Shown one piece after another: positions 6,775 through 45,779 of a stretch of 49,388 bases of DNA. The notes beneath the pieces were generated by a model. The model ran no database searches. It saw nothing but the letters and a program-made list of their open reading frames with translations, and was not told the origin of the DNA. The stretch lies in the NCBI GenBank assembly GCA_022321325.1, contig JAKOEO010000021.1, forward strand, positions 1-49,388, read 5' to 3'. The position numbers and the translations under genes are program-made. How positions within the stretch are numbered: the first letter of the stretch is position 1; every line of letters begins with the position of its first letter. The stretch is from Candidatus Magnetominusculus sp. LBB02. Its GTDB lineage: Bacteria; Nitrospirota; Thermodesulfovibrionia; Thermodesulfovibrionales; Magnetobacteriaceae.

Positions 6775-7965
6775 ATGACGCCGCTTTATTTAGTGGGATT
6801 TTTCGCGCGATTTTCCTATGCCCTGGCCAGAAGCCCTGTGCTGCCGCTGTTTGCCATGTATCTGGGGGCAGGGCCAGAGGCTATTGGCATGGCGGTTGGG
6901 ATTTCCACGGTAACGGGGATCTTCTTTAAGCTGCCGTCAGGGGCGCTGTCAGACATCATCGGCAGACGCCACACTATGCTCATTGGGCTGTGCGTGTTTG
7001 CCGTGATGCCCTTTACGTACATGTTTATACACGACTACAGGGCGCTGGTCATAGTGAGATTTCTGCACGGGTTTGCAACGGCAGTATATGGGCCGGTTGC
7101 GATGGCGGTTGTGGCGGACATCGCCGGGGAAAAGCGCGGTGAGGCTCTGTCGTGGTTTTCCTCTGTAACGATAATTGGCAATCTGGTTGGCGCTCCTGTC
7201 GGCGGCTATTTGCTTCATCATGGTGCGGCGGCTAAGGAGCCAGTACTCTTTGATTTTCAGGTTGTGTATATCATAAGCGGCGTACTTGGAGTAGTATCTC
7301 TGCTTATAGGCATTAAATACTTGAAAGGAAAAGAAAATATTGAAACAGGAAAGTCACTGAAAGAGTCACTGAAGAGATTCGCCTCAGGCATTAAGGAGGT
7401 GGTAAGCGACAAGCGCGTCCTGATAACGTCCAACATGGAAGGCATACAGAACATGTGCATGGGGGCGTTGGAGGCGTTTCTACCAATATACTGCGTAAAG
7501 GTGGCGGGGCTGAATGAGTTTCAGGCGGGGCTTTTGTGGGGTGTGCAAGTGGTCTCCACAATTGTGTCCAAGCCGATAATGGGCAGGAATTCTGACAGGT
7601 ACGGCAGGGTGCCTATAATTGCAGCAGGGCTGTTGATGTGTGCGGTGTCATTTGGGGCGATACCGCTGTTTACGAGTTTTACGCTTCTGATAGCGGCGGC
7701 GGTGGTCTTTGGTTTAGGCGAGGCATTTGTAACGTCATCGTCGGCAGCGCTTGTGGCTGACATATGCAAAGAGAAACACTACGGCACGGCAATGGGGACA
7801 TTTGGCACGATATATGACGTGGGACATGCCTCTGGGCCTATTCTGACAGGGATATTGCTTGCTAAATTCAATAACAACTTTCAGTATTCGTTTTGGATAT
7901 TATCAGCGCTGGTGCTTCTGACTATACCGGTATTTGTCCTGACTATGAGAGTGAAAAAGGTCTAA
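6775..7965 (+). CDS. MFS transporter, 12-span exporter type
   Basis: A 396-residue integral membrane protein with about 12 hydrophobic spans and the MFS loop 2-3 signature GALSDIIGRRHTM (about 60), partly repeated in the second half as GRNSDRYGRVP. This half-repeat pattern is typical of drug/H+ antiporters and small-molecule exporters. It is the last gene of the chrB operon, taking the place where a ChrA exporter would be expected. The substrate is unknown. Its 3' end overlaps the convergent CDF-like gene by 4 bp. Confidence 0.82.
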   Translation: MTPLYLVGFFARFSYALARSPVLPLFAMYLGAGPEAIGMAVGISTVTGIFFKLPSGALSDIIGRRHTMLIGLCVFAVMPFTYMFIHDYRALVIVRFLHGFATAVYGPVAMAVVADIAGEKRGEALSWFSSVTIIGNLVGAPVGGYLLHHGAAAKEPVLFDFQVVYIISGVLGVVSLLIGIKYLKGKENIETGKSLKESLKRFASGIKEVVSDKRVLITSNMEGIQNMCMGALEAFLPIYCVKVAGLNEFQAGLLWGVQVVSTIVSKPIMGRNSDRYGRVPIIAAGLLMCAVSFGAIPLFTSFTLLIAAAVVFGLGEAFVTSSSAALVADICKEKHYGTAMGTFGTIYDVGHASGPILTGILLAKFNNNFQYSFWILSALVLLTIPVFVLTMRVKKV

Positions 7966-40282: not shown

Positions 40283-40515
40283 CTAATGGGCAGATGTTTG
40301 GTGAAGGGTGTCATGATGTTCATTAACATAGCGGCGTACTTGCTTTGGAGTGAATTTTCCCCCTGTAACTCTACAGCTTTTATTTCAGCGCGGAGTCCTG
40401 ATATTTTAGCATGATTGACCGCATAGCGAACGGCATGCTTTGCCGTAGGAAAGAGTCTGGCATCAAGCTCGGCCTCTACCCACTGGGCTGCATCAGGCGT
40501 TAATTCAACTTTCAC
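40283..40515 (-). pseudogene. ParD-like antitoxin, frameshifted copy
   Basis: The N-terminal 50 residues are nearly identical to the intact ParD-like protein at 41196-41429 (VELTPDAAQWVEAELDA). After ENS the track reads a nonsense tail to 40240, but the next frame gives GGKFTPKQVRRYVNEHH ending at a TAG at 40283-40285, the expected antitoxin C-terminus. So a single-base change has broken it. GTG start with a GGAGGG site. A short toxin remnant may follow at 40240-40280. Confidence 0.7.
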
Positions 40516-40681
40516 AAGGAAACCCTCCGTTTGATTCTTTATTGTATGATATATGGCGGCGGCAAAGCAATATGTGTTCAGCTATAATCATTGCTGGTTT
40601 GTGTCATGGACACCCCACTTTTTATCACAGCGGTTGAAGAGAGAGGGGAATCAGCTTTGCGTAAGTCATTGATTTATATGG

Positions 40682-41195: not shown

Positions 41196-41429
41196 TTAGT
41201 GACCGGACTGGCTGACAACATGGTCAAGATGATCGAATACAAAGCTGCGCACCTCGTCCGATGTAAAACTGCCACCCTCCGCCTCGGCGGCTTCTATTTC
41301 AGCGCGGAGTCTTGATATTTTAGCATGATTAACCGCATAGCGAACGGCATCTTCTGCTGTAGGAAAGCGCCCGGCATCAAGCTCGGCCTCTACCCACTGG
41401 GCGGCATCAGGTGTTAATTCAACTTTCAT
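41196..41429 (-). CDS. ParD/CopG-like antitoxin
   Basis: 77 residues from ATG 41429 behind AAAGGAGG; the track start at 41495 is too early. Ribbon-helix-helix N-terminus KVELTPDAAQWVEAELDAGRFPTAEDAVRYAVN, then a toxin-binding helix. It would repress its own promoter and neutralise the ParE-type toxin encoded immediately downstream, which is now frameshifted. Confidence 0.8.
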   Translation of the reverse strand: MKVELTPDAAQWVEAELDAGRFPTAEDAVRYAVNHAKISRLRAEIEAAEAEGGSFTSDEVRSFVFDHLDHVVSQSGH

Positions 41430-41522
41430 GAAGACACCTCCTTTGAATACAACCCTAATGTACAATAAATTGTGGAAGTAATGCAATACGTACATACGTG
41501 GGTAGAATGGATGCCCCCAATT

Positions 41523-43680: not shown

Positions 43681-44284
43681 GTGGAAATCATAAAACTTAT
43701 CTATAAGCACCGATTTCTGTCCTCAGAGCATATTACGGCTTTGATACAGGGCAGCCATCAGAGAATCTTAAGGCGGCTGCAACTATTGTTTCACGGTGGA
43801 TACTTGGATAGACCGATAGAGCAGATTAGGGGATACCGGCAGTTTGGGGCGATGGTTTACGGGTTAGGAAATAAAGGAGCTGACCTTCTTACAAAGCAGT
43901 TTGGCGTTTGGCCTTTATTTTCCTAAGTCTTTGCTAAGAAAGAGGTTGTTTTTCTTTTTAGAGGCAGACAGGGGTACTATGCCGATAAGGAGAAAGAATT
44001 ATTTTACCAGCTCATATTATAAAAAAATACTTGGCTACTGGCAGTCATGGCAACGGGGTGTCTTCAATGCCTTTGGCAATATCCGTGTACTTACCGTAAC
44101 TACGTCAAATAAGAGAATAAACAGCATGATAGGGGCATGTAAGGACGTTGACGCAAGAAAGAAAGGCTCCAGGATGTTCTTGTTTGCCAGAGCAACTGAC
44201 TTTGATATAAAAAATACTGTGAGGACTTTAGAGCGTATATGGTACAATGCAAGGGATAATGACATGGTAAGCCTGATAGATTAG
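43681..44284 (+). pseudogene. Replication-relaxation family protein, frameshifted
   Basis: Two track ORFs join across frames. The first (43681-43926, with sense continuing upstream as LPQDWYNCFQAARERD) gives the winged-helix start EIIKLIYKHRFLSSEHITAL, LRRLQLLFHGGYLDRP. The second (43901-44284) gives FFLEADRGTMPIRR, SYYKKILGYW and RVLTVTTSNKR, the C-terminal half of PF13814-type proteins. Material between is shortened as well as shifted. Such proteins belong to plasmid and ICE replication or transfer modules. Confidence 0.65.
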
Positions 44285-44288
44285 TTCA

Positions 44289-44474
44289 TATATCCACAGG
44301 GCAGTCCCGATTACAGCCTTCAGTTCGGATGGAAAGAAGGTCTGTAATTAGATTTTGACCGTTATTTTACGGTATCCGATCCAAAATCACCGCTCCATAA
44401 ACAAGCCGCTCTTATTATTTTATAAGAGAGCTTAAAGGTCGAGTTTAGGATTGGGAGACTGCCCTCTGGATATA
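44289..44474 (+). ncRNA. Candidate structured RNA or single-strand DNA element with pseudoknot
   Basis: Outer stem P1 pairs 44289-44306 with 44457-44474 (17 of 18 positions). Inside are P2 (44310-44321 with 44336-44348, 12 bp with one bulge), P3 (44351-44362 with 44369-44373 and 44382-44388, 12 bp, with an 8-nt 3' bulge), and P4 (44395-44402 with 44443-44449, then 44403-44406 with 44430-44433, then 44409-44415 with 44422-44428). The P2 loop TCGGAT (44325-44330) is perfectly complementary to ATCCGA (44374-44379) in the P3 bulge, a six-pair pseudoknot. Both P3 and P4 end in TATTTT loops. An intrinsic terminator follows at once. Nearly all pairs are Watson-Crick, so the active strand is not certain. 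The strand is given as plus only because of gene context. Confidence 0.5.
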
Positions 44475-44479
44475 AAAGA

Positions 44480-44505
44480 AAGGACACTGAAGCAGTGTCC
44501 TTTTT
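44480..44505. terminator. Strong intrinsic terminator
   Basis: AAGGACACTG pairs with CAGTGTCCTT around a 3-nt AAG loop, followed by TTTTTG. T-rich sequence also flanks the other side on the minus strand, so it can end both the structured element and the convergent CHC2 pseudogene (stop at 44511). Confidence 0.85.
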
Positions 44506-44510
44506 GTATT

Positions 44511-44896
44511 TTAAAGAGCGAAGATCAGGTGTAAGACCTTTTCTACATCACTGATTACTTTGACACAGCCTTGATAGGCAGACAGCTTGGCCTTTTTAGC
44601 GTAGCGTTCTATAAAGCGGCCTGTCGGGTATCGACATTTTCCATTTTGCTTACGAAATCGATGACGTTACCGCCACCGTTGCAGTTACCAAAACAGTTAA
44701 AGATGTTCTTGTCGGGATTAACCGAAAACTGTCGGGGATTAACCCCTTGATGAATAGGACAGCAGCCCACAAGGTTTTTGCCGGACTGGTTAAGTTTACT
44801 CATCAGGCCGTAATGGTCTAAGACCATTTCCATTGTAATAATGTCTTTGACGGCCTTGAAATCGACCCAATCATGCCCTTTTTTAGATTTAGGCAT
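44511..44896 (-). pseudogene. CHC2 zinc-finger (DnaG-type) protein, frameshifted
   Basis: The track ORF (44609-44896) begins MPKSKKGHDWVDFKAVKD behind AAGGAGG and carries the CHC2 zinc-finger set: CCPIH, then FNCFGNC, then GGNVIDFV. It stops after TRQAAL, but one frame over the sequence continues FIERYAKKAKLSAYQG to a stop at 44511, so a one-base deletion has cut the end. The product resembles the stand-alone zinc-finger modules of primases in mobile elements. With the replication-relaxation relic it suggests a former replication module. Confidence 0.72.
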
Positions 44897-45129: not shown

Positions 45130-45423
45130 ATGGAACGTAATGGAGCCATAAGCCGATTAAAACAGCACGAAGCTGACCTTAAGCAGCTTGGCATTGAGCA
45201 TCTTTTCATGTTTGGTTCAACCGCGCGTGGCGAGGCTCGTGATGATTCTGATGTTGATCTGTTTTTCGATCACCCCGAAGGATCGATAGGGCTTTTTGAG
45301 TTGATGGATATAAAGAGGGCCGCCGCTCGAATCCTTAAGTGCAAAACTGAGATTATGACAAGGCGTAGTTTACGTCACGTATTGCGAGAGCGGATCGAGA
45401 AATCAGCATTACAAGTGTTCTGA
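45130..45423 (+). CDS. mntA: MntA-type nucleotidyltransferase antitoxin
   Basis: 97 residues, minimal nucleotidyltransferase. FGSTARGEARDDSDVDLFF fits the GSx10DxD active site exactly. In MntA-HepT systems this enzyme inactivates the HEPN toxin by adding AMP to it. It overlaps the HepT gene by one base (TGATG). The symbol is by family resemblance. Confidence 0.85.
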   Translation: MERNGAISRLKQHEADLKQLGIEHLFMFGSTARGEARDDSDVDLFFDHPEGSIGLFELMDIKRAAARILKCKTEIMTRRSLRHVLRERIEKSALQVF

Positions 45424-45779
45424 TGACCAATCCTTCACCAGTATCACGCCTTACCGACATTATCGAGGCTATAGAGCTTATTCAAAATGAGATGGCCGAT
45501 GTAACGCTTCATGTCTTTGAAGATGACAGGCGCAAGCAATGGTTGGTCGAGCGTGGCATAGAAATTATCTCAGAGGCCAGCCGCCACCTTCCATGTGAAT
45601 TGAAGGCACGACACCCTGATATTCCTTGGCCGGATGTGGCGGGCATAGGCAATATATTACGTCATGATTATGAGCATGTTGCACACGATGTCCTGTGGCA
45701 TGTGGTGAGGGGCAATTTGCCTCTCTTAGAGAAGGTTTGCCCGAAGAGCTATCGGCCGCAAACACCTAACCGGCCTTGA
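45423..45779 (+). CDS. hepT: HepT-type HEPN ribonuclease toxin (DUF86)
   Basis: 118 residues, all helical. The active-site region reads IGNILRHDYEHV: His and Tyr of the Rx4HxY motif are kept but the Arg position is Gly, the IGNxLRHxY variant I associate with a DUF86 subgroup. Toxicity as an RNase is expected, restrained by MntA. The gene is intact, making this the one apparently working toxin-antitoxin pair here. The sequence to 46035 has no gene; TTAGCGGAT (45864) and ATCCGCTAA (45999) form a distant inverted repeat. Confidence 0.8.
   Translation: MTNPSPVSRLTDIIEAIELIQNEMADVTLHVFEDDRRKQWLVERGIEIISEASRHLPCELKARHPDIPWPDVAGIGNILRHDYEHVAHDVLWHVVRGNLPLLEKVCPKSYRPQTPNRP

Follow-up and report, generated by a model that had tools for sequence, protein, structure and literature searches.

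A conserved branched foldback beside a relic MobC-type relaxase gene in Nitrospirota, a candidate DNA site of a decayed mobile island

What is a strongly folding, non-coding stretch doing between two decayed genes of a Nitrospirota genome, and does it act as DNA or as RNA? The question is raised by 186 bases (44289-44474) of a 49-kb stretch of Candidatus Magnetominusculus sp. LBB02, which was analysed over its whole length and is here called the window. A preliminary description had proposed an 18-position outer stem enclosing several hairpins, with more nested pairing than chance would readily give. Both statements hold. Four stems, P1 to P4, are present (Table 1); P1 is Watson-Crick at 17 of its 18 positions, with a single C-C mismatch, and the window holds no further inverted repeat of that class; P3 is built in two parts. 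Taken together with the adjacent terminator, the element has a minimum free energy of -89.8 kcal/mol, against -48.7 +/- 4.2 in 200 shuffles (z -9.9), none of which was equally low. The lack of a match to known RNA types also stands. With membership defined as a score above a family's gathering cut-off, a search of 4227 Rfam families found just one tRNA in the window, located elsewhere, and at the element itself no family came near its cut-off (E up to 10).

Table 1. Positions of the element, its flanking relics and the related foldbacks; coordinates refer to the window unless a locus is named
Feature	Position	Strand	Remarks
PF13814 (MobC-type) relaxase, N-terminal relic	43681..43926	+	PF13814, E 5.4e-10
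Relaxase, C-terminal relic of the same protein	43901..44284	+	aligns to intact homologue
P1 5' arm, outer stem	44289..44306	+	TATATCCACAGGGCAGTC; five compensatory pairs with L027:7600-7615
CCGATT, P1/P2 junction	44307..44312	+	CCCGATT counting the preceding C
P2 hairpin	44309..44349 (44309-44321/44336-44349)	+	13 pairs, 14-nt loop; two compensatory pairs
P2-loop strand, proposed pseudoknot	44325..44330	+	TCGGAT; L027 equivalent GGATAC
P3	44351..44388	+	outer GATTTTG/CAAAATC (44351-44357/44382-44388), inner ACCGT/ACGGT (44358-44362/44369-44373), 3' bulge ATCCGATC; seen directly
P3-bulge strand, proposed pseudoknot	44374..44379	+	ATCCGA; L027 equivalent GTATCC
P4 and alternatives	44393..44457; apical stem 44403-44433	+	alternatives similar in energy; smaller P4 in L027
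P1 3' arm, outer stem	44457..44474	+	GACTGCCCTCTGGATATA
Intrinsic-terminator-like hairpin	44477..44505	. (bidirectional)	2 nt after P1
Primase relic, zinc-ribbon part only, inverted	44609..44896	-	N-terminus of module primase
Foldback A	L029 692-838; L043 1379-1521; L054 290-439; L052 2952-3070; L050 2230-2350; L062 1673-1837		also in L087, L037, L049 and others
Foldback B	L083 964-1107; L043 945-1095; L052 2555-2710; L037 1737-1884; L062 1162-1363; L060 2032-2259; L091 288-421		plus eight more; set: L043, L050, L052, L079, L080, L082, L083, L094, L105, L037, L049, L062, L087, L060, L091

Homologues in which stem changes are compensated had been named as the check that would support the structure, and one such homologue was found. 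A small search, confined to loci that carry relatives of the neighbouring relaxase, returned a match to a single-sequence model of the element at about positions 7597-7761 of locus L027, from Ca. Magnetocorallium paracelense, a member of another genus in the same Nitrospirota family (23.4 bits, E 1.7e-4, a score to be read with caution, given that the window element scores 28.4 bits even when reverse-complemented). The homology is settled by the detailed comparison of the two sequences, pair by pair. L027 retains P1, P2 and P3, and both sides have changed in 8 of the 27 counted pairs; the five compensatory pairs of P1 are in register, and the one in P3 falls in its inner helix. In this comparison the share of paired cells is 92.6%, and sliding the partners lowers it to 24-39%. 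The outer helix of P3 reads GGTTTA/TAAACC in L027, which also has CCATGC/GCATGG. Hence the element is a real, conserved and non-random nested structure, and the compensatory changes, found between two sequences, identify it as a conserved structured element, either RNA or single-stranded DNA. L027 also contains short exact repeats (7608-7618/7763-7773 and 7693-7701/7749-7757) that offer the P1 arms other pairing options, reminiscent of a conformational switch.

The complementarity between the P2 loop and the P3 bulge, likewise noticed at the outset, is present as described, and shuffles of loop and bulge reach at least 6 pairs in 1.2% of cases. The corresponding loop and bulge of L027 are complementary to each other as well. 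A GGAT/ATCC core is common to both, with the pairs next to it set in different registers; on these grounds, in two sequences, a pseudoknot is supported, though short of proven. In the minimum free energy form, the bulge strand is instead paired with the 3' side of P4, so that only one of the two, pseudoknot or P4 base, would form at a time.

The genes on either side had been taken for relics of replication genes of a mobile element. A decayed mobile element is indeed what surrounds the structure, but its genes are those of a MobC-type relaxase and a primase rather than generic replication functions. The two relaxase pieces come from opposite ends of a single PF13814 protein whose middle, some 100 residues, is missing, and both align to one intact homologue. 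In intact modules the relaxase is followed by a primase, and the zinc-finger piece shares 54% identity over 95 residues with the N-terminal part of that enzyme; relaxase and primase pieces match one and the same module. PF13814 corresponds to the MobC relaxase superfamily in CONJscan, and its members accompany VirD4 coupling proteins in mobilizable elements (PMC5357655). A VirD4-like coupling protein is present in the intact relatives and was not found beside the relaxase relic in the window. From the identities of relaxase and primase, the locus thus represents the relic of a single VirD4-relaxase-primase module that is missing its VirD4-like gene. The predicted structure of the relaxase has a winged-helix-like N-terminus; its C-terminal domain gave no significant fold match, alone or within the whole protein, and the assignment of a nuclease fold therefore rests on the literature, in which MobC relaxases are described as kin to restriction endonucleases (PMC12857230). 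Two further features of the window were noticed: a nucleotidyltransferase and HepT-like pair (45130-45779), of the MntA/HepT toxin-antitoxin type, adjoins the relic module, and a 156-nt direct repeat (40369-40524 and 41283-41438, 88% identical) overlaps two small unnamed ORFs.

A genome scan yielded 49 relatives of the relaxase in Verrucomicrobiota, Acidobacteriota, Alphaproteobacteria and other groups. In intact modules the gene order is VirD4-like ATPase, MobC relaxase and DnaG-like primase, in some cases with ArdC-type genes; ahead of the ATPase gene these modules bear two recurrent foldbacks, A and B. Foldback A is a branched fold of 100-172 nt whose outer stem, in the closer relatives, reaches to the ATPase start codon or stops a few bases from it; its 3' arm carries a conserved GGAG, the usual ribosome-binding spacing is absent, and the fold could exert translational control over the VirD4-like coupling protein. 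Foldback B (134-228 nt) occurs in 15 intact modules from across phyla, 0.25-1.2 kb ahead of the VirD4-like gene; all 15 have GCCCGAC at the start of P2, and strong covariation is seen in the distal half of the fold. Neither foldback matches an Rfam family, nor does the L027 homologue. A strand call for foldback B from folding energy was dropped, as wobble counts fail to account for the energy difference. In another locus (L025 7556-7832 and 8723-8999), two 279-nt stretches, 90% identical and strongly folding, each precede a different small gene.

The window element resembles foldback B in having a long outer stem (about 13-26 bp in B) and wobble-poor helices within the same gene module. The P2 of B starts with (G)CCCGAC, and at that place the window reads CCCGATT and L027 CCCGACT, together CCCGAYT, in a motif that was picked after the fact. 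The window element differs in that B has a long P2 enclosing two hairpins and lies upstream of the VirD4-like gene. A covariance model (R3) built from 11 foldback B sequences recovers held-out members with E values from 6e-26 to 6e-7, does not detect the window element, and gives L027 a score of 2.6 bits (E 1.4) at the expected place. The window element was considered as a foldback A and next as a foldback B; since the B model fails on it, membership is not claimed, and a relationship to foldback B is possible.

The element is rare in the genomes that were searched. It is present in a single copy in its own genome, and DNA searches with it gave no match in plasmids and phages and only short chance matches from genus to order. 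Among 396 genomes of the phylum the single-sequence model recovered the window element alone, and a two-sequence model of window and L027 (R2) recovered those two only. Across 177 genomes of the order, R2 again finds just these two, and the same two are the carriers of the neighbouring relaxase. R2 had no match in 345 genomes of the phylum of a relative, nor in 26 genomes that contain relatives of the relaxase. Some 240 motif matches in viral contigs were rejected, as the outer stem is absent from all of them and their scores do not exceed 11, compared with 16.0 and 15.5 for the real pair. Both known copies are located in decayed elements, and in both the element lies downstream of the relaxase rather than upstream of the gene for the coupling protein.

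To account for these observations, we propose that the element is probably a leftover working part of a mobile element, either a DNA site or a small RNA, and of these two the DNA site, an origin of transfer or a single-strand site, is the more likely. More specifically, it may be a DNA site in the transfer region of a relic MobC-type mobile island, a tentative reading that we hold with somewhat less than even confidence. As a structured, non-coding segment, it would have belonged to the transfer region of an integrative or mobilizable element of the MobC type, of which a relic is left. While that element was intact, we infer, the segment would have acted as DNA, as a putative origin of transfer or a nearby single-strand site; its hairpins would form once the strand had been nicked and unwound, and the folded strand might then be recognised by the relaxase, the coupling protein or the primase.

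Selection on a folding RNA is expected to tolerate more wobble than is seen here. Although the counts are biased, the helix arms having been picked for pairing, the window element has 67 Watson-Crick pairs and one G-T, L027 has 57 with no G-T and one A-C, and the P2 of foldback B has 263 and one G-T. Of the two options offered in the preliminary description, a regulatory RNA and a single-strand origin, the near-lack of wobble pairs leans toward a DNA site. The DNA reading is favoured also by the terminator, which is bidirectional and lacks an equivalent where the L027 homologue ends, and by the plus strand upstream of the window element, where no promoter-like site was found. It gains support from the conservation of the fold in two genomes with its doubly changed pairs, from the co-occurrence of element and relaxase in the same 2 of 177 genomes, from the relic module, from the link of PF13814 to MobC relaxases and VirD4 coupling proteins, and from the strongly covarying foldback B and its position upstream of the VirD4-like gene. 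It is weakened by the failure of the B model to detect the window element, by the lack of pAD1-type direct repeats nearby, by the place of the element downstream of the relaxase, and by the adjacent terminator, which fits an RNA.

The best-surviving alternative is a trans-acting structured RNA, a mobilization or regulatory small RNA, with plus-strand transcription stopping at that terminator. The very stable fold, the pseudoknot-like match and the compensatory changes relative to L027 all agree with it, and there is a precedent in Salmonella Genomic Island 1 (SGI1), where a self-encoded small RNA beside oriT is needed for mobilization (PMC9299015). The properties of promoter, terminator and wobble pairs given above stand against it, as does the absence of an Rfam match, and we regard such an RNA as unlikely, if still a serious contender. 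The strand in particular is not to be taken for granted: the element folds equally well on both (-75.3 kcal/mol on the minus strand vs -72.4 on the plus), and the consensus fold of window element and L027 has its lower energy on the minus strand (-44.7 vs -33.6 kcal/mol). Of the strong intrinsic terminator reported in the preliminary description, the hairpin is there, but its implied plus-strand RNA with an end at this point is not supported.

The position of the element, beginning 5 nt past the relaxase stop codon, between convergent relics and beside a bidirectional terminator, would also suit a large palindromic insulator or 3'-end structure that stabilised or ended the relaxase and primase mRNAs and had no other role. 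We consider this improbable, because the L027 copy is 2.25 kb from the relaxase, with other genes on either side, and retains the internal hairpins and the loop-bulge match, features that a simple terminator could do without. A non-autonomous foldback transposon (MITE), with the outer stem as its terminal inverted repeat, would fit the TATA at both ends, the length of about 190 bp and the decayed region, and is disfavoured as very improbable by the single copy in its own genome, the absence from the other sampled genomes of the phylum, a target duplication that is not obvious at the L027 copy, and the conservation of the inner hairpins.

The reading as a DNA site in the transfer region bears on a group of enzymes that has received little attention: MobC-type relaxases are little studied and few of their transfer origins have been mapped. 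A wider proposal, plausible but held with less confidence than that reading, is that the large branched folds (window and L027, A, and B) form a new class of transfer-initiation structure, acting as folded T-strand DNA or as mobilization RNA. If so, the MobC relaxases of VirD4-relaxase-primase islands would use these folds in the transfer region. The element and the two Rfam-unmatched foldbacks, which come from several phyla, are candidates for marking or controlling the transfer of island DNA.

Among known systems, the sgm-sRNA of SGI1 is comparable as a non-coding structure carried by a mobilizable island, and it is encoded between a mobilization gene and oriT (PMC9299015). SGI1 differs in its mobilization proteins, MpsA and MpsB, which are tyrosine-recombinase-like (PMC9299015). 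The 3'-terminal portion of a 650-700-nt transcript gives rise to the sgm-sRNA, which is a functional precedent for the window element. In pAD1, TraX binds at five direct repeats that lie 70-120 bp away from nic (PMC12857230); repeats of this type were not found near the window element, and the portion of the pAD1 TraX literature consulted describes no branched foldback of 150-190 nt. What the oriT regions of pAD1 TraX and CloDF13 MobC share with the window is a relaxase of the same superfamily in the locus and a non-coding element within a mobilization module.
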